Of a stretch of 64,000 bases of DNA, positions 43,394-62,373 are shown piece after piece. Numbering within the stretch: position 1 is the stretch's first letter; every line of letters begins with the position of its first letter. A program made the position numbers and the translations under genes. The notes beneath the pieces are model-generated. The model was not told the origin of the DNA, did not search any database, and saw only the letters and a program-made list of their open reading frames with translations. Source of the stretch: Nonomuraea gerenzanensis (GTDB taxonomy: Bacteria; Actinomycetota; Actinomycetes; Streptosporangiales; Streptosporangiaceae); assembly GCF_020215645.1 (NCBI RefSeq), contig NZ_CP084058.1, positions 6,572,001 to 6,636,000 of the forward strand, written 5' to 3'.

Positions 43394-44707
43394 TCAGCTG
43401 GAGCGCGACAACAGGTAGGAGTTCAGACTCCCACTACGCAGCCGATCGGCCACCGACTCGGCGATCTCCCCCACCCGGACCGCGGTGGCGGACAGCAGGG
43501 TCGAGGTGAGCCCATGCGTGTGCTCACTGGCCCCCTGAACGTAGATACCGCACCGCATCGCCGCCGACGTCACGACCCGGTAATCGCGATCCAGCCGCAC
43601 CCCACCACCCGGCAGCCGCTCACAGAACCTCCCGGCCTCTCCGAGCAGGGTGAGCGGATCGGCCGGGCGGTAACCGGTGGCGTACACGAGCACGTCGGTC
43701 TCCAGCAGTGTCCGCTCGCCGGTGGGCAGGAACTCCACGGTGACCCGCAGCCCGTCCTCGTCGCGCTCGACGTCCGCCAGCCGGGAGGCGTTGAGGATGC
43801 GCAGCCGTTCCTTGCCCTGGACCTTCTCCTGATAGTGGCGGCGGTACAGCTCGTCGATGAGGTCCAGGTCCACCACCGAGTAGTTGGTGGAGGCGTGGTA
43901 GCCGTTCAGCCGGGCCTTCACCTCCTCCGGCGCCGAATAGAAATGATCGACCGCCACCGGGTCGAAGATGCGGTTGGCGAAGGAGCTGTCGTCGGCCGGG
44001 GTGTAGCCGTACTTGGCGAAGACGGCGCAGACCTCGGCGTCCGGGTAGGCGTTGTGCAGGTGCTCGGTCACCTCGGCCGCGCTCTGGCCCGCGCCGACGA
44101 CCACGAACCTGCGCGGGCCGCGCAGCGACGGCAGTTTGCCGAGCAGTTCCTCGCTGTGCCAGATCCGGTCGTCGCTCACGAGGCCGTCCGGCAGGACGGG
44201 TTCGAGGCCGGCGGCGAGGACGAGGTTGCGGGTGCGGCGGGTGACCAGGGTGCCGTCGCCCTGCCGGACGACCACGTCGAGCAGCTCGATCGTCCCGGCC
44301 GACTCGACGGGGGTGACGGCGACGACCTCGGCGCCGTACTCCACTTCCTCGGAGAAACGCGCGGCCGCCCACTCGAGATAGTCGTGAAACTCCAGACGGG
44401 ACGGAAACATCGTCTTGTGGTTGATGAAGTCGGGCAACCGGCCCTTGTCCTGCAGATAGCAGAGAAAGCTGAATTCGCTGGCCGGATTGCGCATGGTGAC
44501 CAGGTCTTTCAAAAAGGACACCTGCATGGTGGTGCCTTCCAGCAGCATGCCGCGGTGCCAGCCGAAGGCGGGCTGTTTCTCGAGGAACACCGCGTCCAGC
44601 AGGTCGCCCGTCCGGGTCTGGCGTTCCCGTAACGCGATCGCCAGGGCGAGGTTGGACGGTCCGAAGCCGATGCCTACGAGGTCGTGGACGTGCTGCTCCG
44701 AGGACAT
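43394..44707 (-). CDS. cchB: L-ornithine N5-monooxygenase (siderophore biosynthesis)
   Basis: A 437-residue flavoprotein from ATG 44707 (GGAAAGG upstream). It hydroxylates the side-chain nitrogen of ornithine using FAD, NADPH and O2. Motifs: DLVGIGFGPSNLALAIALRE (FAD), SFLKDLVTMRNPASEFSFLC (substrate-pocket segment of the SidA/PvdA/IucD family), RRFVVVGAGQSAAEVTEHLH (NADPH), DVLVYATGYRPADPL (ATGY motif). First step of hydroxamate formation for the NRPS in this window. Divergent from the formyltransferase; two iron boxes lie between them. Confidence 0.95.
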   Translation of the reverse strand: MSSEQHVHDLVGIGFGPSNLALAIALRERQTRTGDLLDAVFLEKQPAFGWHRGMLLEGTTMQVSFLKDLVTMRNPASEFSFLCYLQDKGRLPDFINHKTMFPSRLEFHDYLEWAAARFSEEVEYGAEVVAVTPVESAGTIELLDVVVRQGDGTLVTRRTRNLVLAAGLEPVLPDGLVSDDRIWHSEELLGKLPSLRGPRRFVVVGAGQSAAEVTEHLHNAYPDAEVCAVFAKYGYTPADDSSFANRIFDPVAVDHFYSAPEEVKARLNGYHASTNYSVVDLDLIDELYRRHYQEKVQGKERLRILNASRLADVERDEDGLRVTVEFLPTGERTLLETDVLVYATGYRPADPLTLLGEAGRFCERLPGGGVRLDRDYRVVTSAAMRCGIYVQGASEHTHGLTSTLLSATAVRVGEIAESVADRLRSGSLNSYLLSRSS

Positions 44708-44754
44708 GAACACCTTTCCGCCGGGATGAAACTGGGGTGGAGACATTGCCCAAA

Positions 44755-44773
44755 TTAGGTTAGCCTGACCTAA
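44755..44773. promoter_or_regulatory. Iron box A between hydroxylase and formyltransferase
   Basis: TTAGGTTAGCCTGACCTAA, a near-perfect DtxR/IdeR dyad, 48 bases upstream of the hydroxylase start. Confidence 0.92.
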
Positions 44774-44774
44774 T

Positions 44775-44793
44775 TAAGGCGAGCCTAACCTAA
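44775..44793. promoter_or_regulatory. Iron box B between hydroxylase and formyltransferase
   Basis: TAAGGCGAGCCTAACCTAA, read in reverse TTAGGTTAGGCTCGCCTTA, a close match to the DtxR/IdeR consensus. It abuts box A with one base between them and lies 27 bases before the formyltransferase start. Two adjacent dimers could cover both promoters. Confidence 0.88.
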
Positions 44794-44819: not shown

Positions 44820-45767
44820 ATGCGGGTCGTGATGTTCGGCTACCAGACCTGGGGTCATCGCACGCTCCAGGCACTTCTGGATTCCGCGCACGAGGTCGTC
44901 CTGGTGGTCACCCACCCCAGGAGCGAGCACGTCTACGAGAGGATCTGGAGCGACTCGGTGGCCGAGCTGGCGCAGGCGCACGACGTCCCGGTGCTGCTGC
45001 GCAACCGGCCCGACGACGAGGAGCTGATGGTCCGGCTCAAGGAGGCCGAGCCGGACCTGATCGTCGCCAACAACTGGCGGACCTGGATCCCGCCGGAGAT
45101 CTTCACCCTGCCCCGGCACGGCACCCTCAACGTGCACGACTCGCTGCTGCCCGCCTACGCCGGCTTCTCCCCGCTGATCTGGGCGCTGATCAACGGCGAG
45201 CCGGAGGTGGGGGTCACCGCCCACATGATGAACGAGGAGCTGGACGCGGGCGACATCGTCGTGCAGCGGGCCGTGCCCGTCGGCCCCCAGGACACCGCCA
45301 CCGACCTCTTCCACCGCACGGTCGATCTGATCGCGCCGATCGTCACCGAGGCGCTCGGTCTCATCGACTCGGGCCGGACGGACTGGGCCAAGCAGGACAG
45401 GTCGAAGGCCAGCTTCTTCCACAAGCGCTCGATCGAGGACAGCAACATCGACTGGACCTGGCCGGCCGAGGACATCGAGCGGCTGGTCCGCGCCCAGTCC
45501 GACCCGTACCCCAACGCGTTCACCCACTACCGGGGCGAGCGCGTACGCGTCCTGAAGGCCTCGGTCTCCCAGGGGATCTACGGAGGCACGCCCGGCCGGG
45601 TCTTCATCCGGGAGGGCGACGGCGTGGTGATCGTCGCGGGCGCCGAGGCCCGCCGCGGGCGCAGCCGCGGGCTGGTGATCGAGCGCGTGCGGACGGAGGA
45701 CGGCACAGAGCTGCCGGCCACCGAGGTGTTCAGGACCATGGGCGGCTACCTCACCCGCACCCCCTAG
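44820..45767 (+). CDS. cchA: N5-hydroxyornithine formyltransferase (siderophore biosynthesis)
   Basis: A 315-residue enzyme from ATG 44820 (AAGGAGG upstream). It should transfer a formyl group from N10-formyl-tetrahydrofolate to N5-hydroxyornithine, giving the hfOrn building block. Family features: MRVVMFGYQTWGHRTLQALL, DLIVANNWRTWIPPEIF, the catalytic block LNVHDSLLPAYAGFSPLIWA (N-x-H...S-L-L-P), and a C-terminal Fmt-like domain (NIDWTWPAEDIERLVRAQSD, YPNAFTHYRGERVRVLKAS). Its stop overlaps that of the convergent esterase gene (CTAG). Confidence 0.93.
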   Translation: MRVVMFGYQTWGHRTLQALLDSAHEVVLVVTHPRSEHVYERIWSDSVAELAQAHDVPVLLRNRPDDEELMVRLKEAEPDLIVANNWRTWIPPEIFTLPRHGTLNVHDSLLPAYAGFSPLIWALINGEPEVGVTAHMMNEELDAGDIVVQRAVPVGPQDTATDLFHRTVDLIAPIVTEALGLIDSGRTDWAKQDRSKASFFHKRSIEDSNIDWTWPAEDIERLVRAQSDPYPNAFTHYRGERVRVLKASVSQGIYGGTPGRVFIREGDGVVIVAGAEARRGRSRGLVIERVRTEDGTELPATEVFRTMGGYLTRTP

Positions 45768-46867
45768 CGCCCGGCGGCGGGGACGTCGCCCGCGAGCACC
45801 CAGGCGACGTCCCTGAGCAGGGCGTGCCGCCAGGCCGCCCGATCGTGCCCCGAGGGCGAGCGCGAGACCCGCACCGTGGCGCCGGCCCGCTCCGTCAGGC
45901 TCTCGACCAGCTCGCAGTGCGGCAGCATGCCCTGCTCGTGCTCCCCCACGTCGAACGCGACGCGCAGCCCCGACAGGTCGGGCCGCTCGCGCAGGCGCGC
46001 GGCGATGGCGCCGCCGGCCGGGCCGCCCATGGGGTCGGCCAGGTCCGCGGCGCCCGGCGCCCACCAGAACGACCCCGACTGGCAGGCCAGCCCGGTCACC
46101 AGCCCGGGGAACTCCAGCGCCGCGTACATCGCGCTCAGCCCGCCGAGGCTCTGCCCGGCTACCACCATCCGCTCCGGGTCGGCGGGCACGCCGCTGCCCT
46201 CGACCAGCGGCAGCAGCTCGTCCCCGATCGCCTCCCACAGCTCCGGCCGGCAGGCGAACTCGGCCTCCCGGTCCCCGGCGGGCACGAAGACGAGCGTGAC
46301 GGGAGGCAGCTCCCCCTTGGCGACGGCCGAGTCGAACGCGGTCATGGCCGGGTGCAGGTAGAGCCAGTCGTCCCCGTCGAGCAGCAGCACGACCGGCCCG
46401 CCGCCGCCCACCGGATGCACGCGCACGGTGCGCCGCCCGCCGAGCCGCGCGCTGGTCCAGCGCACGCGGGCCCGCGGCAGCGGCAGCACGTCGGCGGTGC
46501 CGACGGCGGGCCAGTGCGGCTGGGCCGGGGCGTCGGGGGCCGCGGCGATGGACCGGTCGCCGCCCGCTCCCGTCGGGTTGTGCGGGTCGGCGTGCGCCCC
46601 GTCCCCGGCGCGCACCTGGTAGGTCACCCGCAGCCGCGCGGGCATGGCCACCTCGGCGTACCAGCAGTCGGTCTCGCCCCAGCGGCGCAGCGGGACCGGC
46701 CGCGACCAGCTCTCGAAGTCGAGACTCGCGGGCGAGCCGCGCCACAGGAACAGCGCCGTCCAGCCGGCGTCGCCGCAGGGCGCCCACACGGGCGTCACCG
46801 CAGCGGCCCAGAACGCGTCGGTGCCCGGCTCGGCCGGAAAGCCGAACCTGGCGAAGGTGTCGTCCAC
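45764..46867 (-). CDS. cchJ: Fes-like siderophore esterase (CchJ-like)
   Basis: A 367-residue cytosolic protein from GTG 46867 (GGAGG upstream). The N-terminal enterochelin-esterase domain (FLWRGSPASLDFESWSRPVP, CWYAEVAMPARLRVTYQVRA, DPHNPTG) is followed by an esterase-D type alpha/beta domain: VVLLLDGDDWLYLHPAMTAF, RMVVAGQSLGGLSAMYAALE (nucleophile in GQSLGG), VAFDVGEHEQGM and the PSGHDRAAWRHAL histidine. In coelichelin-type clusters such a protein stands beside an NRPS that lacks a thioesterase, and is thought to release the product or liberate iron from it. An iron box at 46903-46921 precedes it. Confidence 0.88.
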   Translation of the reverse strand: MDDTFARFGFPAEPGTDAFWAAAVTPVWAPCGDAGWTALFLWRGSPASLDFESWSRPVPLRRWGETDCWYAEVAMPARLRVTYQVRAGDGAHADPHNPTGAGGDRSIAAAPDAPAQPHWPAVGTADVLPLPRARVRWTSARLGGRRTVRVHPVGGGGPVVLLLDGDDWLYLHPAMTAFDSAVAKGELPPVTLVFVPAGDREAEFACRPELWEAIGDELLPLVEGSGVPADPERMVVAGQSLGGLSAMYAALEFPGLVTGLACQSGSFWWAPGAADLADPMGGPAGGAIAARLRERPDLSGLRVAFDVGEHEQGMLPHCELVESLTERAGATVRVSRSPSGHDRAAWRHALLRDVAWVLAGDVPAAGR

Positions 46868-46942: not shown

Positions 46943-47188
46943 ATGAACATCTGCATGGACACGACTGCGGCAGGACGCCCCGCGTCCGCGCGGTTACGCC
47001 GTCGCCGGATGGCGGGGGCGGTCACGCTGGTGCCGCTCCTCGCGGTCATGGGGGCGGCGTCGCCGGCCGTGGAGGCGCGCACCGGGCAGCGGCCGCGCGC
47101 CCTGCCCGTCGGCGTGGTCACCGCCGCGTTCGGCGGCCCGTTCCTCGTCTACCTGCTGGTCCGGGCCAACCTCAGGAGGGACGCGTGA
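46943..47188 (+). pseudogene. FecCD siderophore permease, C-terminal remnant
   Basis: Eighty-one codons from ATG 46943. After a basic start (ARLRRRRMAGAVTLVPLLAV) comes MGAASPAVEARTGQRPRALP then VGVVTAAFGGPFLVYLLVR. The E-L-P/A-L-P-V-G-V-V-T-A-x-x-G-x-P-F end is the invariant last helix pair of FecCD permeases, which normally have about 330 residues and ten helices. More than three quarters of the gene is missing, yet the iron-box promoter remains. Possible relic of a cchC or cchD homologue. Confidence 0.7.
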
Positions 47189-47204: not shown

Positions 47205-47223
47205 CAAGGTTAGCCTTACCTAA
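47205..47223. promoter_or_regulatory. Iron box upstream of the binding-protein remnant
   Basis: CAAGGTTAGCCTTACCTAA, a good match to the DtxR/IdeR dyad, 61 bases before ATG 47285. Confidence 0.88.
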
Positions 47224-47284
47224 TATCGGCGTGTTACGGTGCTCGTGGTTCGGCGAGTGTGCAGCGGACAGCAGAGGACTGCGG

Positions 47285-47782
47285 ATGCTTCTCCCAGCGA
47301 CGACAGTGACGAAGAGCCTGCGACGGTCAGCGGTGGTGCCTTCCGCCGTGGCCCAGCTCGACGCGGCCCGCGCCGCGCACCCGGAGTTCGCCGGCCAGAC
47401 CGCCGTCGTGGTGTCCTGGTACAAGAACGCGGTCGCGCCCTTCACCACCACCGACGTGCGCGGGCGGCTGGTGACGGGCATCGGCCTCAAGGGGCAGCCG
47501 GAGATCGACAAGATCGCGGGCGGTAGCTTCTACACCGTGTTGTCTCCAGAACGCATCGACCTCATCGACGTCGATCGCATCTCCGTCATCGCCGACCGGG
47601 CCGACCAGAGTGCGCTGAAGAACGTCGAGCTGTTCGCCAACCTGCCGGCGGTCAAGAACGGCAAGGTGTCGTACCTGCTCGACAGCGAGGGGCCGGCCAT
47701 CGGCGCGGCCATCTCGCAGGGCACGCTGCTGTCGCTGCCGTACGCGATCGACGAGCTCGTCAAGTCGGTCGGCCAGGGGTGA
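47285..47782 (+). pseudogene. Siderophore-binding protein (FecB/FhuD-like), C-terminal half
   Basis: About 165 codons. AQLDAARAAHPEFAGQTAVV, SFYTVLSPERIDLIDVDRIS, SALKNVELFANLPAVKNGKV and AISQGTLLSLPYAIDELVKS are the second lobe of a periplasmic-binding lipoprotein. Signal peptide, lipobox and the whole first lobe are missing, so a translated product would stay in the cytoplasm and could not bind a ferric siderophore in the normal cleft. Iron-box control is preserved. Corresponds to cchF of coelichelin clusters. Confidence 0.75.
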
Positions 47783-47828: not shown

Positions 47829-49604
47829 GTGAGCGGCTCCTCCTCCGCCATCCTGCGCACCGCGACCGGCCGCGAGGCCACCCGCTGGGTCGTCGCGGCC
47901 TGCCGTGAGGCGCCCTGGCTGACGGCCGCCGCCGCGCTGACCACGGTGGCCGGGGCGGCGCTGCAGGTGCTGCCCCTGCTGCTGCTCGGGCGGGTGGTCG
48001 ACGGGGTGACGGCCGGTGAGCCGCAGTCGATCCTGGTCACGATCGGGGTGCTGCTGGTGGCCGCCGCGCTGCTCGGCGCCGCGGCCACCGGGGCGTCGGC
48101 GTACCTGATCGGGCGGCTGGGCGCCGAGTTGCTGGCGAAGCTGCGCGAGGGCGCCGTGCGGGCCGTGCTGGGCATGCCGAGCGCCCGGGTCGAGCAGGTC
48201 GGCCACGGCGACGTGCTGTCCAGGGTGGGTGACGACGTGGCCGTGGTGTCCAAGGGCATCCGGCAGGCCGTGCCGACGGTGCTCTCGTCGGGGGTGCTGG
48301 TCGCGGTCGCCACCGTGGGCATGTTCGGGCTGGACTGGCGGCTCGGGCTGGCGGGCGCCGGGGCGCTGCCCGCGTACGGGCTGGCGCTGCGCTGGTACCT
48401 GCCCCGCTCCGCGCCGCTCTACCGGACGCAGCGCGAGGCCCAGGCGGACCGCGCGCAGGCGCTGATCAGCGGGCTGAACGGGATCGACACCGTGCGGGCG
48501 TACCGGCTGGAGCCCCTCTTCCGCGAGCGGGTCGCCCGCGAGTCGTGGCGGGTGCGCGATCTCGGCATCGAGGTGTTCCGCTTCTTCGGCCGGTTCGTCG
48601 GCAGGGAGAACCGCGCCGAGTTCATCGGCCTGGTCCTGATCATCGTGACCGGGTACGTGCTGCTGGAGGCGGGCGCCGTCACCCTGGGCGAGGCGTCGGT
48701 GGCGCCGCTGCTGTTCCACCGGCTGTTCAACCCGCTGGGCTCCATCATGTTCACCTTCGACGAGGCGCAGAAGTCGGGGGCGAGCCTGACCCGGCTGGTC
48801 GGGGTGCTGGGCGAGGCCACGCAGGAGCGGCTGGTGGGCGGCGCGGCCGTCGAGCCGGCGGGCACCGGGCCGTACCCCGTGCGGGTGGCGGGGCTGACGT
48901 TCGCCTACCCCGGCTCCGAGCGGCCGGTGCTGCGGGAGGTGGACCTGGAGATCCCGGCGGGCGGCTCGCTCGCGCTGGTGGGGGCGACGGGCGCGGGCAA
49001 GTCCACGCTGGCGGCGCTGATCGCGGGCATCGGAACCCCGCAGGCCGGGTCGGTGCGCATCGGCTCCACCGACCTCGCCGACCTGGACGAGGCGGGGGCG
49101 CGGGTCCTGGCGAGCATCCTGACGCAGGAGACGCACGTGTTCTCCGGCTCGCTCGCCGACGATCTGCGGCTGGCCGCGCCGGAGGCGACGGACGCCGAGC
49201 TGTGGCAGGCACTGCGCACGGCCGGCGCGGGCCCGTGGGCCGAGGCGCTGCCCGACGGGCTGGACACCGTGGTGGGCGAGGGCGGCCAGCGCCTCGACGG
49301 CACCCGGGTCGCCCAGCTCGCGCTGGCCCGGCTGGTCCTGGGCCGGTCGCCGGTGGTGGTGCTGGACGAGTCCACCGCCGAGGCGGGCAGCCAGGGCGCC
49401 GCCGAGCTGGAGCGGGCCGTGCTGGCCGCGTGCCGGGGGCGTACCGCGCTGTTCGTGGCACACCGGCTGACCCAGGCGATGGCCGCCGACCGCATCGCCG
49501 TGCTGGACGCGGGCCGCGTGGTGGAGCAGGGAACACATGAGGAGCTCGTCGCCCTGGACGGCCGGTACGCCCGGCTGTGGCGGGCGTGGCGGGAAGCCGG
49601 CTAG
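47829..49604 (+). CDS. cchG: ABC exporter half-transporter with intact Walker motifs (siderophore export)
   Basis: A 591-residue fused permease-ATPase from GTG 47829 (GGCGGGG upstream). Six transmembrane helices (LTAAAALTTVAGAALQVLPL onward) precede the nucleotide-binding domain: ALVGATGAGKSTLAALIAG (intact Walker A, about residue 385), ILTQETHVFSGSLADDLRL (Q-loop), VVVLDESTAEAGSQG (Walker B with catalytic glutamate). The signature loop reads EGGQRLDGTRVAQLAL instead of LSGGQxQR, i.e. degenerate. The partner encoded at 60673 has the opposite defects, so the two are expected to work as a heterodimer exporting the siderophore. Its stop is 27 bases before the NRPS start. Confidence 0.9.
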   Translation: MSGSSSAILRTATGREATRWVVAACREAPWLTAAAALTTVAGAALQVLPLLLLGRVVDGVTAGEPQSILVTIGVLLVAAALLGAAATGASAYLIGRLGAELLAKLREGAVRAVLGMPSARVEQVGHGDVLSRVGDDVAVVSKGIRQAVPTVLSSGVLVAVATVGMFGLDWRLGLAGAGALPAYGLALRWYLPRSAPLYRTQREAQADRAQALISGLNGIDTVRAYRLEPLFRERVARESWRVRDLGIEVFRFFGRFVGRENRAEFIGLVLIIVTGYVLLEAGAVTLGEASVAPLLFHRLFNPLGSIMFTFDEAQKSGASLTRLVGVLGEATQERLVGGAAVEPAGTGPYPVRVAGLTFAYPGSERPVLREVDLEIPAGGSLALVGATGAGKSTLAALIAGIGTPQAGSVRIGSTDLADLDEAGARVLASILTQETHVFSGSLADDLRLAAPEATDAELWQALRTAGAGPWAEALPDGLDTVVGEGGQRLDGTRVAQLALARLVLGRSPVVVLDESTAEAGSQGAAELERAVLAACRGRTALFVAHRLTQAMAADRIAVLDAGRVVEQGTHEELVALDGRYARLWRAWREAG

Positions 49605-49631
49605 GTGATCAGATGGAGGTTTCCGAAAGGG

Positions 49632-52600
49632 ATGGCTGAGTCTGCGATGTTGGAACCAAGCGCTCGTCTCGTTTCGCTTTCTTCCGCACGGCTGGCCGGT
49701 CTGCGCCGGCGGATCGGCGACCATCCCGACGGGACCCTGGCCCGGGCGTGCGCCGTCGGGCTGGCGTACTGGGCGACGGGGCACGGCCCCGACGGCCTCG
49801 GCCTCGCCCCCGGCACGCCGTTCACCGACGTGCTCGGCTGGGACGGCGACCTGCCGGCCGGCTGGGCGGTCGCCGGGGACGGGCGGAGCATCGCCGTCCC
49901 CGAGGGCGTCGCGCCGGCGCAGGCGCAGCTCGCGCTGGACGACCTGGCCGACTTCCCCGACCGGCCGGTGGGCACCATCGGCCCGTCCAGCGTGGCGGAG
50001 CGGCTGCGGACCCTGGCCGGATGGAACGACACCGCGGCCGAACGGGTCCGGCCGACCATCGTGGAGCTGTTCCGCGAGCAGGTGCGGGCCAGGCCGGACG
50101 CCGTGGCCATCGTGGACGAGCGGCGGTCGCTGACCTATCGCGAGACCGCCGCGCTGGCGGGCCAGCTCGCCCGCCACCTGATCGACCGCGGGCTCAAAGC
50201 CGAGCAGGTCGTCGGCATCTCGCTGGAGCGCTCCGCCGACATGGTGATCGGGCTGCTGGGCGTGCTGATGGCCGGGTGCGCGTTCGTGCCGCTCGATCCG
50301 CGCTGGCCGGCCGCGCGGCGGGCGGTGGTCGTCGCCGACGCCCGGCTCGCGGTGCAGCTCAACCGCTCGGGCGAGCACGAGCCCGGCGAGCCGGAGGCCG
50401 TGGCCGTCGATCTCGGCGACTGGCGGTTCGGCTCGTATCCGGCCGAGGTGCCCGAGGTCGCCGTCCCGGGCGCCGCCCTGGCGTACGTGATCTTCACCTC
50501 GGGTTCGACCGGGCGGCCCAAGGGCGCGATGATCCGGCACGAGGCGATCAGCGAGCGGCTGCTGTGGCAGGTGCACGAGATCCTGCACTTCGGCCCCGGT
50601 GACGCATCGCTGTTCAAGGCGCCGCTGTCGTTCGACATCTCCATCAACGAGATCTTCCTGCCGCTGGTGTGCGGCGGCAGGCTGGTGGTCCTGCGGCCCG
50701 GCGGCGAGCGCGACCCGCACCACCTGCTGAGCGTGATCGCCGAGCAGCGGGTCACGTTCACGTACCTGGTCTCGTCCATGCTGGACGTGCTGCTGGAGAT
50801 CGCGGGCGACTCCGGGCGGCTGGACAGCCTGCGGCACGTGTGGTGCGGCGGCGAGGTGCTGACGCCCGAGCTGTACGAGCGCTTCCGCACCCGGCTCGGC
50901 ATCCCCCTCTACCACGGCTACGGCCCGGCGGAGACGACGATCGGCGTCTCGCACGTCATCTACCGGGGCGCGGCCGAGCGCCTGTCCACCTCGATCGGCA
51001 AGGCCAACCCCAACACTCAGCTGTACGTGCTGGACGATGAGCTGCGCCCCGTCCCGGTCGGGGTCGGCGGCGAGCTGTACGTGGGCGGCTTCCTCCTCGG
51101 CCGCGGCTACGTCAACGCGCCCGAGCTGACGGCCTCCCGGTTCGTGGCCAACCCGTTCGCCACCGACGGGTCACGGCTCTACCGGACCGGCGACCTGGCG
51201 CGCTTCACCCCGGACGGGTCGCTGGACTTCCTCGGCCGGGCCGACAACCAGATCAAGATCCGGGGCATGCGGCTGGAGCTGGAGGACGTCGAGGCCGGTC
51301 TCGCCGAGCACCCCGGCGTGCGGCACTCCTGCGTCGTGGCCAGGAAGAACGCCGCGGGCGGCACCTACCTGGTGGGCTACGTGATCCCGGCGGCCGGCAG
51401 CGAGGACCTGCGGCCGGAGGACGTCACGTCCTGGGCCGCCGGGAACATGGTGGACTACATGGTGCCCGCGCACGTCGTCGTGATGCGGGAGTTCCCGCTC
51501 ACCGAGAACGGCAAGCTGGACCGGCGCGCGCTGCCCGAACCGGTCGCCGGGCCCGGCCCGATGGTCGCGCCCGCCACCGAGGCCGAGCGGGTGGTGTGCG
51601 CCGCGGTCGCGTCCGTGCTGGGCCTCGAAGAGGTCGGCGTGGACCGCAGCTTCTTCCAGCTCGGCGGCGACAGCCTGCTGGCGATCTCCCTGCTCGGTGC
51701 GCTGCGCGAGGCGGGCCTGCACGTCACGGCGACCGAGATCTTCACCAGCGCCACCGTGGGCGCGCTGGCGGCGGTGGCCAGGCGCGAGGACGCCCCCGCC
51801 GCCGACCACGAGGACATCGCGACCGGCCCTGTCACGGGCTCGCCCATCGTGCGCTGGCTGGGCGAGACCACGGACGCCGTCGGCGGCTTCGTGCAGTCCG
51901 TGGTGCTGAACAGCCCCGCCGGCCTGACCGCCGGCGCCCTCGGCGAGCTGCTCGCCGCCGTGGTGGAGCGGCACGACATGCTGCGGGCCAGGCTGGTGCG
52001 CGGCGAGCGCTGGGGCTTCGACGTCCCGGAGGCCGGCCGGGCGCAGGTCAGGTGGCAGGAGAGCGACCGGCCGCGCGACGCGTGCGTCGCGCTCGCCGCC
52101 GCGGCGCTGGATCCCGACGGGGGCGCGATGCTCGCCGCCGTCTGGCGGCGCGCGGCCGGGGAGCTGGTCGTGGCCGCCCACCACGTGGTGATCGACGGCG
52201 TGTCCTGGCGGATCCTGATGGAGGACCTGGCCACGGGGTGGCGGCAGCTCACGTCCGGCACGCCGATCGCCCTGCCGCCGGTGCGCACGTCGTTCCGGCG
52301 CTGGACGCAGTTGCTGGAGCGGACGGCGTTCGACGCGGACCTCGCCTACTACCGGCGCCCCCTGCCCGGGGCGGACGAGCCCGTGGGCAGGCGCGCGCTG
52401 TCCGAGGCCGACACGGTCGCGCGGGAGAAGGTGCGGGTCGTCGCGGCCGATCCCGGCGTCACCGCCGCGCTGCTCGGCGAGATCCCCGCCAGGTTCCACG
52501 CCGGCGTCAACGACGTGCTGCTGACCGCGCTGGCCGTCGCCCTCGCCCGGTGGCGCCGCGACCTGGGGCAGGACCAGACGTTCGCGCACATCGAGCTGGA

Positions 52601-55600
52601 GGGCCACGGCAGGGAGGCCCGGCACGTGGCGGACGCGGCCGGGTTCGAGCCGGACCTGTCGCGGACCGTGGGCTGGTTCACCACGCTGTTCCCGGTGGTC
52701 GTGGACCCGGGCGGCGCGGCCGACCTCACGGATCCCGGCTACCTGTCCGCCGCCCTCAAGGCGGTCAAGGAGGACCTCGCCAGGGTGCCGGGCAACGGCC
52801 TGTCCTACGGCGTGCTGCGGCACCTGCACGGCGCCGAGTTCGACGCGCCCGCGCCGCAGGTGCTCTTCAACTACCTGGGCCGCTTCGAGGCGGGCACGTC
52901 CGGGGAGTGGCGGCTCGCGGGCGCCACGGGGCAGCTCGGCGAGCGGCGCGACCCCGGGATGCGGCTGCCGCGCGCCCTGGAGTTCAACGCGATCGCCGAG
53001 CCCGGCCCCACCGGCGCGTACGAGCTGGTCACCACCATCTCGTGGCCGGAGGGCGTGTTCACCGACGGCGACGTGGCCACGATCGGCTCGTACTTCCTGG
53101 CCGCCCTCGCGGGCCTGGCCGCGCTCGACGGGGGCGGCCACTCCCCCAGCGACTTCCGGCCGCTGTCGCTGACGCAGGCCGACGTGGACGCCCTGGACGG
53201 CCCGGCGCTGCGCGACATCCTGCCGCTGACGCCGTTGCAGGAGGGCCTGTACTTCCACTCGGTCTTCGACGACGACTCGGCGGGCAGCTACGTCGAGCAG
53301 CAGGTGCTGACCCTGGAGGGCGAGGTGGACGCCGACCGGCTCGCCACCGCCGCCACCCGGCTGCTCACCGTCTACCCGAACCTGGCCGCCAGGTTCGTGG
53401 CGCTCGCCGACGGCCGGGTGGTCTCGGTGCTGGACGGCGGCCCCGGCAGTGGCGTGGTGGCGCCGTTCACCACGCTGGAACGGCCCGGCATGACCGACGA
53501 GGAGATCCGCGAGCTCGCGGAGCGGGACCGCCGCGCCGGGTTCGACCTGGCCACCGGCCCGCTGATGCGGTACACGCTCATCCGCGCGGGCGCCGGCCGC
53601 ACCGTCCTGGTGCAGACCGTGCACCACATCGTCGCCGACGGCTGGTCGGTGCCGGCGATGCTGCGCGCGCTGCTGGCCGAGTACCACGCGCCGGGCAGCG
53701 TGCACCCGCTGGGCGGCTTCCCCGGCTACGTGCGCCGGCTCGCCGCGCTCGACGAGGAGGAGAGCGACCGGGTGTGGCGGGCGGAGCTCGCGGGCGTGCC
53801 CGGCCCCTCGCTGGTCGCCGAGGGGCACACCCCGTCCGGCCGGTACGCCGACACCGCCGTGGAGCCGGACGGCCTCGACCTCGACGCCGCCGCCCGGTCG
53901 GCGGGGGTGCCGCTGAGCGTCGCCGTGCACAGCGCGTGGGCGCTCACGCTGGGCGGCATCCTGCACCGCGACGACGTGGTGTTCGGATCCACGGTGTCCG
54001 GGCGGGACGCGGACGTGCCCGGGATCGAGGACATGGTGGGGCTGTTCATCAACACGATCCCCGTGCGCGCCCGCTGGGCCGGCGCGACCACCACGGCTCG
54101 CGAGCTGCTGGGCTCCGTGCGGGAGCACCAGAACGCGGTGCTGCCGCACCAGCACGTCTCGCTGGCCAGGATCGGGCGCCAGGCGGGGGGCGGGCCGTTG
54201 TTCGACACGCTGGTGGTGTTCGACGTGGCCACCGACGTGGACAGCCTGCGGCGGCCGGGTGACGAACTGGTCATCACCGGGGTCGTGAACGAGGGGGCGC
54301 CGCACTATCCGCTGACGCTGGTGGTGGAGCGCGGGGCGGGCGGGGGGAGCCGGTTCAACCTGATCTACGACGGTGAGCTGCTGCGGGAGGCGGGGGCGCG
54401 GGCGATCCTGGGCACGTTCACGCGGGCGCTGACCGGGCTGCTCACCCGGCCGGACGGGCTCGTCCGCGACCTGGCCTCCGGCACCACCCGGCGACCGGCC
54501 CCGAGCGCGCGCTCTACCGCGTCCGGCGAACCGCTCGGTCCCGCCGCGATCGACGCCGCGGCGACGCTCGGCGGGCTCTTCGACGCCGCCGCGCGCCGTG
54601 ATCCGGCCGCCACCGCCGTCACCCAGTGCGCGCTGGACGGCGGCACCCGCTCCCTCACCTACGGCGAGCTGGCGGCGGCGAAGGACCGGCTGGCCGGGGC
54701 GCTGCGGGCGGCCGGGATCGGGCCGGGCGAGCGGGTCGCGGTCGCCCTGCCGCGCTCCGTCGAGCAGGTCGTCGCGCTGATCGCCGTCGTCACGGCGGGC
54801 GGCGCGTACGTCCCGCTGGACACGGCCTACCCGGACGAACGCCTGGAGTACGTCCTCACCGACGCCGCCCCAAGGGTCGTGCTCGTGGACCGCGACCAGC
54901 GGGACCGTCTTACGGCGCTGGCGGACAAGGCGGGCGTGCCGGCCCGCGTGCTCGTCGAAGGAGACGAGCCGCCCCCGGAAACCACCGCCGGACCAGGGCC
55001 GGAACCGCACGACCCGGCGTACGTCATCTACACCTCCGGCTCGACGGGCAGGCCCAAGGGCGTCGTCGTCCCGCACTCCAGCGTGGTGGCGCTGCTCGCG
55101 AACACCCAGCCCGACATGCACTTCGGCCCCGACGACGTGTGGGTGCAGTTCCACTCCGCCTCCTTCGACTTCGCCGTGTGGGAGCTGTGGGGCGCGCTCG
55201 CGCACGGCGGCGAGCTGCTGGTGCCGGAGTACGGGCTGACCCGCTCCCCCGTGGACTTCCACCGGCTGGTACGCGAGCGCGGCGTCACCGTGCTCAACCA
55301 GACACCCTCGGCCTTCTACCAGCTCATCGAGGCCGACCGGCACGCGGGCGAGCCGCTCACCGCGTTGCGCCGGATCATCTTCGGCGGCGAGGCGCTGGAC
55401 CTGGCGCGGCTGCGCGGCTGGGTCGAGCGGTACGGCGCCGGCTCGCCCGAGCTGGTCAACATGTACGGCATCACGGAGACCACCGTCCACGTCACCCACC
55501 GGGTGCTGACCGGCGAGGACTTCGCGGCCGGCGGCGAGGCCAGCCCGATCGGCGGCCCCGTCCCCGGGCTGGTCACGTACCTGCTCGACGACCGGCTCAG

Positions 55601-58600
55601 GCCGGTGCCACCGGGCCGGGTGGGCGCCATCTACGTGGCCGGTGCGCAGGTGTCGCTGGGCTACCTGGGCCGGCCGGGGCTGACGGCGAGCCGGTTCGTG
55701 CCTGATCCGTTCGCGGCCGACGGCTCGCGCATGTACCACACGGGTGACCTGGCCTGGCGGACGCTCGGCGGCGAGCTGGTCTTCGCCGGGCGGGCCGACG
55801 ATCAGGTGCAGCTCAAGGGGTTCCGGGTGGAGCCGGGCGAGGTGGAGAGCGCGCTCAGGGAGCTCGACGGGGTGGTGGACGCGGCCGTCACCGTGGCGGA
55901 CAGCGGTGATCATCTGGTCGCGCACGTGGTGGGCGAGGCGGCCGGTGACGTCGCCGGGCTGCTGGCGGTGAAGCTGCCCGCGTACCTGGTGCCGGGGCGG
56001 GTGCTGACCGTGGACGCGCTGCCGCTGACGGTCAACGGCAAGCTGGACCGGGAGGCGCTGCGACGGCACGCGGCCCAGCACGAGGCCATGACACCAGCCG
56101 AGCCGGGCGCGCCCGCCCACGCCGGGCACGGCGCCCCGGCGCACGCCCCGCAGAGGGCCTCAGCGCTTGCTGCACAGGGCGCCACAGCGCACGCCCCGCA
56201 GGGCGCCCCGGCGCTCGACGCGCTGATCGGGATCTTCGCCGAGGCCCTGCCCGCCACCGACGTGGACGCCGACACCGACTTCTTCCGAGCCGGCGGCGAC
56301 AGCATCATCGCCATCACCGTGGTGAACCGCGCCAGAGCCCTGGGCCTGCCGGTCTCCCCCCGCGAGGTCTTCCTGCACAAGACCCCCCGCGCCCTCGCCG
56401 AGCACCTGGACACGAGCACACCACAGCCCGCACCACCCGAGCCGCCCCGCCCGCAGGACGGCCCGCTGGCACCCACCCCGATCATCCTGCGCCAGCGCGA
56501 GCTGGGCGGCTCCCTCGCCCGCTTCGCCCAGGCCAGAGCACTCCAGGCCCCGGAGGGCACCGGACCGGCCGACGCGGAACGCGCCGCGAACGCCGTCGTC
56601 GCCGCCCACCCGGCACTGCGCCTGCGCCTGCGCGTCGAGCACGGGGTGTGGTCGCTGCGCACCGAGCCGTCCCGCCCCGTCACCGTCGTCCGTACGGACG
56701 CGACCGACCCGACGGCCGTGGCGAACGAGGCGGCGGGACGGCTCGACCCCGAGACCGGGGAGGTGATCGCGTTCTCGTGGCTGGAGGCGAGCGGCACCCT
56801 GGTGATCACCGCGCACCACCTGGCCGTGGACGCGGTGTCCTGGCTGATCCTGCTGGACGACCTGACCGCCGCCCTGCGCGGCGCGGCCCCGGCACCCACC
56901 ACCACCTCCTACGCCGAGTACGCCGACGCGCTGGCGATCCGCTCCGCGCACGACGCCGAGGACCTCGGCCGCTGGCTGGAGACGCTCGCCGCGCCCCCGC
57001 TGCTGCCGGCGGTGGGCGGGCTGCGCCGGCTCACGGTGGAGATCGCGCCGGAGACGACCGCCCGGGTGACGCGGACGGCCCCCGCCGCGCTCGGCGTCGG
57101 TCTCACCGAGCTGCTGTGCGGCGCGTTGCGGGCCGCGCTGACGCACGTCCAGGGCTCGCCCGCCGACCTGGCGATCGAGCTGGAGCGGCACGGCCGGGTC
57201 CCGGCGCTGGAGCACCACGACTACACCCGCACGGTCGGCTGGTTCACCGCCATCGCGCCCGTGCGGCTCACCCCGCACACCGACCCGGTCGCGGCGGCCC
57301 GCGAGCTGGCCGGACGCCAGCCGGACGAGCGCGGGCACGCCGGCTACGGCCGGCTCAGGTACCTCAACCCGCAGACCGCGCCGCTGCTGACCGCACGCCC
57401 GCAGGTGCTGTTCAACTACCTCGGCGCGGGCAGCGAGTCGCGGGCGCTGCGGATCACCGGCGGCGACCAGGGCAGCCCGTACGCGGTCGAGGTCAACGCC
57501 TGGCTCGACACCGAGACCGGCACGCTGCGCGCTGACCTCATCCTCGCCGAGGGCGTCCCCGACGAGCTGGCCGGGCACTGGCGGCGCGCGCTGGAGCAGG
57601 TCGCGGACGCCTGCGCGACGGCCGAGCGCACGGCCCCGGTGACCCCGCTGCAACGGGGCCTGTACTTCCAGGCCCAGCTCACCGGCCCGGCCGGGCACTA
57701 CGTCGCCCAGAGCTACTTCACCTTCGACCGGAGACTGGACGCCGGCGCCCTGGCCGAGGCGATGGCGTACGTGATCGCGCGGCACCCGGCCGTGGGGGCC
57801 GGTTTCGGCACTGACGCCGACGGCAACCCCGTCCAGGTGCTCGCGGCGGACCGGCGGGTCGTGGTGCGCACGGTCGAGCTGCCGGACGAGGTGGCGGCCG
57901 AGGAGCTGTGCGCCCGGGACCGCGACACGGGCTTCGACCCCGGCGAGCCGCCGCTGATCCGGCTGACCGTGGTGCGCCTGCCCGGCTTCGACGGCCTGCT
58001 GCTGAGCTACCACCTGCTGCTGTGGGACGGCTGGTCGCGCGAGATCGTGCTGCGGGAGCTGTTCGACGCCTACGCGGCCGTCGTCGCCGGGCAGCCGCTG
58101 GACCCGATGCCCGCCACGCCGAGCTTCGAGGAGCACGCCAGGGCGCTGGCCGCCAGGGACGTCTCGGCGGCGGAGCGCTTCTGGGCCGAGCACCTGGCGG
58201 GCCTGCCCGGCCCGACGCTGCTCGCCGGCCCGTCGCCGTCGCTGCCGGACGAGCTGCCGCCCGCGCTGGTGCACACGCTGACGCCCGCGCGGTCGCGGCT
58301 GCTGCGGGAGGCGGCCAGGACGCACGGCGTCACGCTGAACTCGGTGCTGACCGGCGCCTTCGGCCTGCTGCTCGGCGCGCACACGGGCCGCTGCGACGCC
58401 GTGTTCGGCGTGACCGTCTCCGGGCGGGAGGGCGCGGGCCTGTCCGGCATCGTCGGCGTGCTGCTCAACACCGTCCCGATGTGGACCAGGGCCCGGCCGG
58501 GCGACACGGTGCGGGAGTACCTGTCGGCCGTGCAGGCGGCCAGGGTCGCCGCGATGGAGCACGAGCACCTGGGGCTCGGCGAGATCCAGCGCGGCAGCGG

Positions 58601-60686
58601 GCACGACACCCTGTTCGACAACCTGTTCGTGCTGCAGAACTTCCTGGACCCGGACGCCTTCGCCGAGCGCGACGCCCGGCACGGCATCGTCGCGGAGCGG
58701 GCCGACGACTCCACGCACTACCCGTTCACCTGGGTCGTCACGCCCGGCGAGCAGCTCACGGTCAAGCTGGAGTACCGCGACCGCGACACCGCTCGCGCCC
58801 GCCGGCTGCTGGACGACTACCTGCGCGTGCTCGACGACCTGGCCCGGTGGACGGGGCCCGTGGGGGCGCTGCCCGGCCTGGGCCCCCTGCCCGTGCCGGG
58901 CGAGCGCACGGACATCGGCACGGACACCGTGGTGGACCGGTTCGACCGGGCGGCCGACCGCGACCCGGACCGGGTGGCGCTCGTCGCCCACGGCCGGAGC
59001 CTGACGTTCGCGCAGTTGCGGGATCGCAGCCGGGCGGTGGCCGGGGTGCTCGCCGGTCGCGGCCTCGGCCCGGACAGGACCGTGGGGCTGGCGATCCCGC
59101 GTTCGCTCGACTCGATCGTCGCGCTGTTCGCCGTGCTGCGGGTGGGCGCGGCGTACGTGCCGCTGGAGCTGGACCACCCGGACGAGCGGATCGCCGCGAT
59201 CGTCGCGGACGCCCGCCCTGACGTGATCCTCACCGTCGGCTCCGTCTCCCCCCGGCTCAGCGGCGAGCTGATCGAGCTGGACCGGCCGCTCCCCGAGGCC
59301 GAGCCGTTCGTCACGTTCGCGCCCGGCGACCCCGACCGCCTGCGGCACCCCGCGTACACGATCTACACCTCCGGCTCGACCGGCAAGCCCAAGGGCGTGG
59401 TCACCGAGTACGCCGGGCTGACGAACATGCTGATCAACCACCAGCGGCGGATCTTCGAGCCGGTGCTGGCGGAGCACGGCCACCGGGTCTTCCGGATCGC
59501 GCACACCGTGTCGTTCGCGTTCGACATGTCGTGGGAGGAGCTGCTGTGGCTCGCGGACGGGCACGAGGTGCACATCTGTGACGAGGAGCTGCGGCGCGAC
59601 GCGCCGCGCCTGGTCGAGTACTGCCTCGACCACCGGATCGACGTCATCAACGTGACCCCCACCTACGCGCAGCAACTGGTGGCGGAGGGCCTGCTCGACG
59701 ACCCGGCGCGGCGGCCCCCGCTGGTGCTGCTGGGCGGCGAGGCGGTCACGCCGGCGCTGTGGCAGCGGCTCGCCGGGACCGAGGGGACCGTCGGCTACAA
59801 CCTGTACGGGCCCACCGAGTACACGATCAACACCCTCGGCGTCGGCACGTTCGAGTGCCAGGACCCGGTGGTGGGCGTGCCCATCGACAACACCGACGTG
59901 TACGTGCTGGACTCCTGGCTGCGGCCGGTGCCGGACGGCGTGCCCGGCGAGCTGTACGTCTCGGGGATCGGCATCGCCCGCGGCTATCTCGGGCAGCCGG
60001 GCCAGAGCGCGCACCGGTTCGTCGCGTGCCCGTTCGGCGAGCCGGGCGAGCGCATGTACCGGACGGGCGACCTCGTGCTGCGGCGCCCCGACGGTAACCT
60101 GATGTACCTGGGCCGCACCGACCAGCAGGTCAAGATCCGGGGGCACCGGGTCGAGCTCGGCGAGGTCGAGGCGGCGTTCGCGGCGCATCCGGCGGTGCGT
60201 TTCGTCGCGGCCGTCGCCCAGTCCGATCCGCAGGTCGACGGCGCGTACCGGCTGGCGGCCTACCTCGTGCTGGGCGAGGCGGATCTGGCGACGGTGGCGG
60301 CCGAGGTCGGCGCCGGGCTGCCCGACTACCTGCGGCCCACCCACTACGCGCAGGTGGACGCCATCCCGCTGACCGTCAACGGGAAGGCCGACACCAAGGC
60401 GCTGCCGGAGGCCAAGCCGCTCGGCGCGCTGACCACGTCGGCCGAGCGCGGCCCGGCGACCGAGACCGAGAGGACGGTGTGCGAGCTGTTCGCCGAGGCA
60501 CTGGACCTGGATGACGACGAGGTGAGCGCGGTGAGCGACTTCGTGTCCCTCGGGGGGCACTCCATGCTGGCGGTGCGGCTGGTGGGGCTGCTCCGCCGCG
60601 AGTACGGCCCGGTGATCACCATCCGCGACCTGTTCGCGCTGCTCACCCCCGAAGCGATCGCCCGGCACCTCGATGAGCGCCGCTGA
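49632..60686 (+). CDS. cchH: Trimodular coelichelin-type NRPS (A-T-E-C-A-T-E-C-A-T)
   Basis: About 3,684 residues. I place the start at ATG 49632 (GGAGG at 49615-49619); ATG 49647 is possible. The first roughly 120 residues have no full domain. Module 1: A ([10 protein letters not shown] near 330), T (GGDSLLAIS near 680), E ([10 protein letters not shown] near 850). Module 2: C (HHIVADGWS near 1330), A ([10 protein letters not shown] near 1840), T (GGDSIIAIT near 2216), E ([10 protein letters not shown] near 2395). Module 3: C ([10 protein letters not shown] near 2792, atypical), A ([10 protein letters not shown] near 3296), T (GGHSMLAV near 3640). No thioesterase. Specificity residues read DINYWGGIGK, DFWNIGMVHK and DMENLGLINK, known for hfOrn, Thr and hOrn. 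The product is therefore coelichelin or a close analogue. Confidence 0.95.
56107..56220 (+). repeat. Ala/His/Gln repeat linker in NRPS module 2
   Basis: Between A2 and T2 the protein has an irregular repeat, [34 protein letters not shown]. It is encoded by degenerate units of roughly 21-30 bases sharing GCGCACGCCCCGCAG. Linkers here are normally short and variable, so this resembles the other in-frame expansions in the window. Confidence 0.6.
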
Positions 60687-62373
60687 CCGGCGGGAGCCCC
60701 GCACGGGCTCCGAGATCCTCCGGACGGCGCTGCGGCGCAACGCGGGCGCCATGGCGGGCGGCACCGTGCTCATGGGCCTGTACCAGGCGGGCGAGACGGC
60801 CTTCCCCATCGCGCTCGGCCTGATCGTCGAGCACGCGCTGCAGGAGCGCAGCCTCGGCTCGCTCGGCTGGTCGATCGTCGCCCTGGCGGTGATCATCACG
60901 ACCGTTTCGCTGTCGTGGCGGTTCGGGATGCGCATCCTGCAGAAGGCCAACACGACGGAGGCGCACCGCTGGCGGGTGCGGGTCGCCGACTGCGGGCTGC
61001 AGCCGGTGGCCAGGGACACCGGCCTGAAGTCCGGCGAGGTGCTGACCGTCGCCACGGAGGACGCCGACCAGACCGCCGACATCATCGAGGTGGTGCCGCT
61101 GCTGATCAGCTCGCTGGTCGCGGTGCTGATCACGGCGGTCGCGCTGGGCGTGGCCGACCTCTGGCTGGGGGTGCTGGTGATCGTGGGCACCATCGCGATC
61201 CTGACCATCCTCAGCGTGCTGTCCAAGCGGATCGGCGAGGCCACCCGCGAGCAGCAGGCGCGGGTGGCGCGGGCGGGCGCGAAGGTGGCCGACCTGATCA
61301 GCGGCCTGCGCCCGCTGCACGGGTTCGGCGGCAACCAGGCGGCGTTCCTGTCGTACAGGAAGGTGAGCGCGCAGGCGCGGGACCAGGCGGTCGGCGTCGC
61401 CAGGATCAACGGCGCGTACGCCGGGGCCGCGCTGGCGCTCAACGCGATCCTCGCCGCCGCGGTGACCCTGGCGGCCGGCTGGCTGGCGCTGAGCGGCCGG
61501 ATCAGCATCGGGCAGCTCGTCATGGCCGTGGGGCTGGCGCAGTTCATCATCGAGCCGCTCAAGCTGTTCTCCGAGATGCCGAAGTACGTGATGATCGCGC
61601 GGGCGTCGGCGGACCGGATGGCGCTGGTGCTGGCCGCTCCCCCGGTGATGGATCCGGGCACGGAGCGCCCGTCGCCGGGCGGCGGCCTGGAGGTGGACAG
61701 CGTAAGTCACGGGTCCCTGCGGGAGCTGAAGTTCCACGTGGCGGCGGGCGAGTTCGTGGCCGTGGCCGCCTACCAGGCGCGCGAGGCGGCCGACCTGGCC
61801 GCGATCCTGGCCGTGCACGTCCCGCCCGGCGCCTACGAGGGCGTGGTGCGGGTCGGCGGGCGGGAGCTGCAGGACCTGTCGGTCGAGGCGCTGCGCGAGC
61901 ACCTGCTGGTCAACCCGTACCACGCGGAGATCTTCGCGGGCACCCTGCGCACGAACCTCGACCCGTCGGGGACGGGCCGCCCCGTCGAGGCGGCCGTCGA
62001 GGCGTCCATGCTGACCGACGTCGTCGCCCTCCACCCGGAGGGCCTCGACCACGAGGTCCGCGACCGCGGCGCGAACCTGTCGGGCGGCCAGCGCCAGCGT
62101 CTCTCCCTGGCCCGCGCCCTGGCCGCCGACCCCGGCATCCTGGTCCTGCACGACCCGACGACGGCGGTGGACGCGGTCACCGAGCAGCTCATCGCGCGCA
62201 ACGTGGCGGAGCTGCGGCGGGGGCGCACGATGATCGTGATCACCAGCAGCCCCGCGCTGCTCGACGCGGCCGACCGCGTGCTCGTCCTGGACGGTGGGGT
62301 CGTCACCGCCGAGGACACCCATCGCCACCTGTTGCACACCGACGAGACCTATCGTCAGGCGGTGGCCAGATGA
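60673..62373 (+). CDS. cchI: ABC exporter half-transporter with degenerate ATP site (siderophore export)
   Basis: A 566-residue fused permease-ATPase overlapping the NRPS end by 14 bases. The membrane domain ([40 protein letters not shown]) is normal. In the nucleotide-binding domain the Walker A site reads [20 protein letters not shown], without the G-K-S/T; Walker B reads [13 protein letters not shown], with His at the magnesium-binding Asp and Asp at the catalytic Glu. The signature [17 protein letters not shown] is intact. Alone it cannot hydrolyse ATP, but it can provide the signature to the intact Walker site of the partner at 47829. Confidence 0.9.

Follow-up and report, generated by a model that had tools for sequence, protein, structure and literature searches.

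A half-transporter pair of a coelichelin-type cluster in Nonomuraea gerenzanensis with one predicted ATP site and a second site apparently without nucleotide

How can two half-transporters, each of which lacks part of the usual nucleotide-binding machinery, make up a working pump, and what would such a pump carry? The question is raised by a 64,000-nucleotide stretch of the 12.07 Mb genome of Nonomuraea gerenzanensis (contig NZ_CP084058.1, positions 6,572,001 to 6,636,000; this whole stretch is called the window, and coordinates are counted from its first letter). Two adenosine triphosphate (ATP)-binding cassette (ABC) half-transporters are encoded on its plus strand, A (CchG-like, 47829..49604, 591 residues) and B (CchI-like, 60673..62373, 566 residues), on either side of a nonribosomal peptide synthetase (NRPS) gene. 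Open reading frames (ORFs), profile matches and motif alignment agree in giving each protein a transmembrane domain and a nucleotide-binding domain (NBD). Our reading, to which we give a probability of roughly two in three, is that A and B work only together, as a heterodimeric type IV exporter of a coelichelin-type siderophore with one ATP site and a nucleotide-free second site, and that the pair serves re-export in species that do not make the siderophore.

The profile search matched ABC_membrane and ABC_tran in both proteins and no further domain in either. The ABC_tran match covers profile positions 1–137 in A but only 29–136 in B, so that in B it begins past the Walker A motif. Motif positions were fixed by aligning A and B with 59 relatives and with the remaining exporters that the genome encodes. 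In A the A-loop (Y360), Walker A (GATGAGKST, 385–393), the Q-loop (Q433), Walker B with the catalytic Glu (LDE, 512–514) and the H-loop (H545) are intact, whereas LDGTR (489–493) stands in the place of LSGGQ and the D-loop reads AEAGS (517–521). B presents the reverse picture. Its P-loop reads AYQAREAAD instead of GxxGxGKST, with the glycines and the Lys gone (A372 occupies the Lys position), the A-loop aromatic residue is missing, Y416 replaces the Gln of the Q-loop and S525 the His of the H-loop, and in Walker B the Asp has become H493 and the catalytic Glu D494; the signature LSGGQ (469–473, within LSGGQRQR) and the D-loop (TAVD) are intact. All canonical motifs thus fall on one composite site, formed by the Walker motifs, Q-loop and H-loop of A and the LSGGQ and D-loop of B, and the losses fall on the opposite one. 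Because the losses are complementary, neither an A+A nor a B+B dimer would contain a complete ATP site, and an obligate heterodimer with a single ATP site is well supported as a prediction. ATP would be bound and hydrolyzed between the Walker A, Walker B, Q-loop and H-loop of A and the LSGGQ and D-loop of B, while the opposite composite site should not bind nucleotide. Among the best 25 NCBIfam models for each protein none passed its cut-off; A resembles the model of a TetAB subunit at a score far below that level, and 30 B proteins of the wider sample described below matched generic exporter models.

The same split was found throughout the relatives that were read. The wider sample comprised 100 fetched regions (60 + 40), all selected from matches to B, of which 99 loci were kept once L176, without a half-transporter, had been dropped. 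The halves were assigned by similarity score alone (lowest B score, 189 bits), since earlier counts on motif-sorted halves were circular for Walker A and signature; the result was unchanged. Walker A is absent from all 98 B proteins aligned at that position (that of L270 has no aligned letters there) and SGG[QE] is present in 99 of 99, whereas every one of the 99 A proteins has Walker A and none has SGG[QE]. The CchI-type rows, made up of the window's copy, 80 named loci and 29 others with some genomes twice, likewise lack Walker A and keep LSGGQ in 110 of 110. In the motif-sorted set A retains LDE (99/99), the H-loop His (94 of the 94 sequences reaching that position) and the Q-loop Gln (98/99); with the window added, the H-loop His occurs in 0 of 100 B proteins and a Ser-Pro pair in all 100. 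Walker B of B is more varied (HD 61, DE 18, VE 8, HE 4, others 9; n=100). What the B proteins of these alignments have in common is the absence of Walker A; the state of Walker B differs among them. In a tree of the 99 pairs and 28 halves from the window's own genome, all halves without Walker A group in a single clade (support 0.999). The A halves group in a second clade (1.0), and A and B jointly do not form a clade. Chance loss of motifs, considered as an explanation, was ruled out by the own-genome alignment and the 99-locus recount.

These results bear directly on an earlier sequence-only reading of the window. It had given A both Walker motifs with a degenerate signature, and B a retained NLSGGQRQR with Walker A and the Walker B Asp lost; the ORFs and the motif alignment agree with it on both proteins, its EGGQRLDG being part of the LDGTR stretch together with the preceding residues. 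The asymmetry that it described is real and was understated, given that changes it had not listed in the Q-loop, H-loop, A-loop and D-loop fit the same pattern. Its proposal of an obligate heterodimer with only one hydrolyzing composite site is supported at the sequence level by the complementarity of motifs in the window and the 99 loci and by the monophyly of each half. The asymmetry, which it had suggested following in CchG/CchI homologues, is conserved there as the same split, with no counter-example in the 99 loci, and a homologue with two complete sites, which by its own account would have spoken against the proposal, did not appear among the A/B relatives read, all of which were found through similarity to B.

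Matches to B are widespread, occurring in 178 of 297 genomes of the family (E <= 1e-60) and 164 of 394 of the class (E <= 1e-50), with motifs read in the fetched loci. B is 100% identical to its match in a Nonomuraea gerenzanensis record. The plasmid collection also gave a match to B, in NZ_LT559118.1, an 11.85 Mb Nonomuraea sequence that is evidently a chromosome but is filed among plasmids, and no feature is listed under this match. A second branch (L166, L169 and 22 loci among L247–L276) was also seen, in which B lacks Walker A and its Walker B reads DE in 14 of 24 and VE in 8 of 24; the A proteins of this branch carry a canonical D-loop such as SLLDP, and no iron box was found in its loci, most of which are short stretches. 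The D-loop of A and the Walker B of B vary together. Where A is of the AEAGS type, B reads HD in 59 of 74 pairs, and where it is not, B reads DE in 14, VE in 8, DD in 2 and HD in 1 (n=25). That lone HD belongs to L146, in which the region stops within A. This relation hints at a contact across the dead site but may come from one or a few events on the tree.

The window's genome has 32 PF00664 matches, 30 of which were obtained as loci. Walker A is absent only from B, L200 (10662895) and L204 (10372046) and is kept in the other 27. L200 and L204 adjoin halves without the SGG signature, L197 and L194, respectively. The genome thus holds two further Walker-A-less/signature-less pairs, at 10661177–10664208 (L197/L200) and 10372046–10375251 (L194/L204), and the D-loop of A is canonical in that branch. 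Their presence makes cross-pairing possible and gives some room to the idea that A works with another partner, B being no more than a decayed or regulatory subunit. We regard this as very improbable: the ratio of nonsynonymous to synonymous substitution rates (dN/dS) of B is like that of A, its SGGQ is invariant, and A and B occur together in all 37 genomes described below.

A closer inspection of conservation over the 74 AEAGS-type pairs showed how the two sites differ. Within A, Walker A lies at percentile 83, the Q-loop at 99, Walker B at 78 and the H-loop at 99, and within B the signature lies at percentile 94 with SGGQ invariant. The P-loop remnant of B is at percentile 45, about average, as expected if nothing binds there. 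Other parts of the dead site remain highly conserved, namely the D-loop of A (83) and, in B, the HD (91), the PT (97) and the H-loop remnant with Ser-Pro (88). Residue by residue, B has values of 0.94 for His at the Q-loop Gln position, 0.77 and 0.83 for HD, 1.0 and 0.97 for PT, and 0.97 and 1.0 for Ser-Pro, and AEAGS in A ranges from 0.85 to 1.0. Both halves show a dN/dS of 0.24–0.32, B being similar to A and the pairs of producers similar to those of species without the NRPS; these ratios run high, as high GC constrains synonymous sites. That B might be a pseudogene was ruled out by its conservation, the invariant SGGQ and dN/dS. The mirror-tree correlation of A and B (r 0.978) is not used as an argument, since linked inheritance explains it. 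We infer that nucleotide was lost from the dead site and protein contact retained; most likely it would act as a nucleotide-free contact or hinge between the NBDs, built from HDPT and Ser-Pro of B and AEAGS of A.

An ordinary degenerate-site exporter, whose dead site still holds ATP tightly and does not hydrolyze it, would fit part of this picture. MsRv1273c/72c binds ATP at its degenerate site (PMC12038006, accessible part), and a review gives near-normal ATP affinity for the degenerate sites that it covers and, for Pdr5, lists the substitutions Lys to Cys, Glu to Asn and His to Tyr (PMC7756269, accessible part). The B proteins read have lost, however, the P-loop glycines, the Lys, the Q-loop Gln and the H-loop His together. 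The Walker B Asp is likewise missing from the B of the window and from most B proteins of its branch, and what is left of the P-loop is not specially conserved. A tightly held ATP at this site is therefore unlikely in our view.

As to the substrate, the surroundings of A and B point to siderophore metabolism. The NRPS (CchH-like, 49605..60686, plus strand, with its start set at the first GTG that follows a stop codon and the true start possibly slightly downstream) carries three adenylation-type TSGSTG motifs, has orthologues at 83–93% in 13 other genomes, and overlaps the start of B by 14 bases. Upstream lie an L-ornithine 5-monooxygenase (CchB-like, 43394..44746, minus strand; PF13434, 1.4e-113), a formyltransferase (CchA-like, 44820..45767, plus strand; PF00551 and PF02911) and an esterase (CchJ-like, 45764..46867, minus strand; PF00756), the individual cch names being assigned here by similarity. 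On the same grounds, monooxygenase, formyltransferase, esterase, NRPS and A/B make up a cluster of the coelichelin type. Between the esterase and A there are two remnants of siderophore uptake genes on the plus strand, one of a FecCD permease (46943..47188, profile positions 265–311 of 311 only) and one of a CchF-like binding protein (47231..47782, positions 121–231 of 235 only). Longer relatives of the latter occur in L032, L308, L309, L310, L311 and L314. Among close relatives, L121 matches neither the permease nor the binding protein and L120 matches both.

Iron-box-like palindromes, taken as sequence matches with <=3 mismatches to the iron-box consensus, add to this link. The window contains three, two in the spacer from which the monooxygenase and formyltransferase genes diverge (44755–44773 and 44775–44793) and one ahead of both the binding-protein remnant and A (47205–47223), with 0 expected from 100 shuffles. 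Such boxes were found in 15 of 20 orthologous loci, in 22 of 39 more distant loci and in 6 of 7 NRPS-less loci that were fetched again (from genomes of which several also belong to the 20), and, among the 30 exporter loci of the window's own genome, in one, that of A; order-1 random copies gave 0 in three repeats. In a sample of 143 neighbour proteins (of 188 automatic calls) taken from 30 distant loci, the domains that rank first or close to it are Peripla_BP_2 (9), FecCD (7), SIP (6), ABC_tran (6) and ornithine/lysine hydroxylase (5). Siderophore transport by A/B is supported by the coelichelin-type cluster, the iron boxes and the siderophore genes near distant relatives.

The association with the NRPS is looser than the window suggests. 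Of the 20 orthologous loci, 8 have the NRPS between the two halves. In the remaining 12, A directly adjoins B, their aligned ends being -5 to 61 bases apart; among the 99 fetched loci, A and B ORFs lie within 1 kb in 91 and the NRPS separates them in 8. In a set of 37 genomes with B at >= 77% identity, A and B co-occur in 37, 35 by search and two (G201 and G234) by direct look; as the search for A missed these two, such searches can miss genes. A CchH orthologue (83–100%) is present in 14 of the 37, with 40–47 candidates scored per genome and a true orthologue expected to rank first. The formyltransferase, for which all candidates were scored, is found in the same 14 and in G264 and G269, near NRPS genes other than CchH, the G269 copy having one internal stop. 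In the genomes with the pair and without CchH, B is still 77–87% identical (e.g. L308, L309, L310, L311, L314). The earlier reading had the pair flanking the NRPS and genetically locked to each other by this arrangement; the flanking holds in the window, and the locking does not, given the adjacent pairs and the genomes without CchH. Likewise, its siderophore exporter keeps the siderophore link through cluster, iron boxes and neighbours, but export of the cell's own product fails as a complete account, since the 23 genomes with the pair and without an NRPS orthologue deprive self-made coelichelin of the role of common denominator. In those genomes self-made coelichelin is an unlikely substrate, and the distribution indicates that the pair is of use without synthesis.

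What that use is depends on the direction of transport. Of the 14 NRPS-less loci read, 10 encode a CchF-like protein (67–85%) beside the pair. Upstream of A and B, L308 encodes two FecCD permeases, an ATPase and the binding protein; L312, outside those ten, has a different binding protein, two permeases and an ATPase; and L313 (G058) showed no uptake gene in the portion scanned. A/B could have the fold of an exporter and yet work in siderophore import, as IrtAB and YbtPQ do, bringing in ferri-siderophore also in species that do not make it, and where the pair exists without synthesis this is the chief rival of export. It would account for the 23 of 37 genomes with the pair and no CchH and for the adjacent binding proteins, and the window retains the pair although its own FecCD and binding-protein genes there are remnants. 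Fold searches accommodate it too. The AlphaFold model of B (39 aligned sequences; mean pLDDT, the predicted local distance difference test, 62, with residues 412–507 below 50) gave TM-scores of ~0.4–0.5, confirming the exporter fold only and not separating import from export. TM287/288, TmrAB, BmrCD, MsRv1273c/72c and MsbA were among the best bacterial half-transporter matches in the PDB, and chains of YbtPQ and IrtAB were also matched. On the other hand, a second importer would be redundant where loci without the NRPS can already carry a set of binding protein, permease and ATPase (L308, L312), A and B have ABC_membrane and ABC_tran only, CchCDEF is the named uptake system (PMC12161575, accessible part), and 12 near-full-length FecCD permeases are encoded elsewhere in the window's genome. 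We thus consider an importer quite improbable. Under the preferred reading, an exporter, the pair would send out newly made siderophore in producers; in species with the pair beside uptake genes and no NRPS, re-export of the iron-free siderophore after use fits best, because the uptake genes are already there.

Several observations weigh against this reading of A/B as a one-site siderophore exporter. The 23 of 37 genomes without a CchH orthologue have a best NRPS match of <= 52% or none passing, and only 2 of 40 far loci, which are shorter stretches, contain an iron box. With regard to the dead site, the degenerate signature stretch of A is only at percentile 60, so that the site is not specially kept throughout, and the more distant B proteins, of the other D-loop group, often retain DE in Walker B (14/25); even on the live side, a single A protein of 99 has E at the Q-loop Gln. 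Seven halves from the window's own genome have one-letter changes in the signature (SAGQ, SAGE, SMGQ, SRGE) with Walker A kept, and asymmetry as such is therefore common. The relatives were all found through similarity to B, which disfavours those with an intact Walker A. Finally, the AlphaFold model of A (9 sequences; mean pLDDT 37) was unusable and no dimer model could be obtained.

For the degenerate site of asymmetric exporters, a natural family without the phosphate-binding loop of that site, spread over many actinobacterial families, would test directly the idea, proposed for MsRv1273c/72c, of ATP as glue. It is possible, and we put it forward only tentatively, that a whole actinobacterial exporter lineage runs on a single ATP per heterodimer, with the second site rebuilt as a nucleotide-free hinge and the ATP glue dispensable for alternating access, and that its iron-regulated branch also recycles foreign siderophore in species without the NRPS. 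The pair also provides a way into two further questions, the route by which Gram-positive cells release siderophores and the reason why species without the coelichelin NRPS retain its presumed pump.

Among known siderophore transporters, IrtAB and YbtPQ have both ATP sites intact and work in import, which sets them apart from A/B as proposed here. In IrtA a siderophore-interacting domain is fused to one half; the profile search found no such domain in A or B. The likeness lies in the two half-transporters, the siderophore substrate and the shared fold (PMC10246721, accessible part). The closest counterpart is CchG/CchI of Streptomyces coelicolor (SCO0491, SCO0493), which stands with the same cluster genes as here, except that the uptake genes are remnants in the window. 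Orthology to CchGI and the cch context were established against Streptomyces loci other than S. coelicolor itself, and B is 76–90% identical to its matches on the 80 actinobacterial contigs kept, including Streptomyces coelicoflavus. CchGI is already presumed to export coelichelin (PMC12161575), and the accessible part of that paper makes no mention of a dead ATP site in it.

Among asymmetric exporters, TM287/288, TmrAB, BmrCD and MsRv1273c/72c share with A/B the exporter fold and two unlike halves with one consensus and one degenerate site. TM287/288, TmrAB and BmrCD keep Walker A at the degenerate site, and yeast Pdr5 keeps its P-loop glycines. What sets MsRv1273c/72c apart from A/B is that the Walker A of its degenerate site binds ATP, and in the model for it this ATP acts as glue (PMC12038006, accessible part). 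Pdr5 is like A/B in that every motif of one site is changed, the Walker A Lys included, and has been called one of the most deviant degenerate-site cases; it differs in its inverse domain order, its single chain and its fungal and plant subfamily (PMC7756269, accessible part). A search of the open literature, which left most subscription papers outside, found no description of a family with Walker A missing in one half. A/B share with the degenerate-site exporters one consensus site and a second site altered in the catalytic Glu, the H-loop or the signature; the Walker A that those exporters keep at the second site is missing from the B of the window and from all 98 fetched B proteins aligned at that position. 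For this reason A/B are classed as a variant of the degenerate-site exporters, although the loss is not strictly defining, as Pdr5 has lost the Lys, and it is as such a variant that their apparently ATP-free site looks new.

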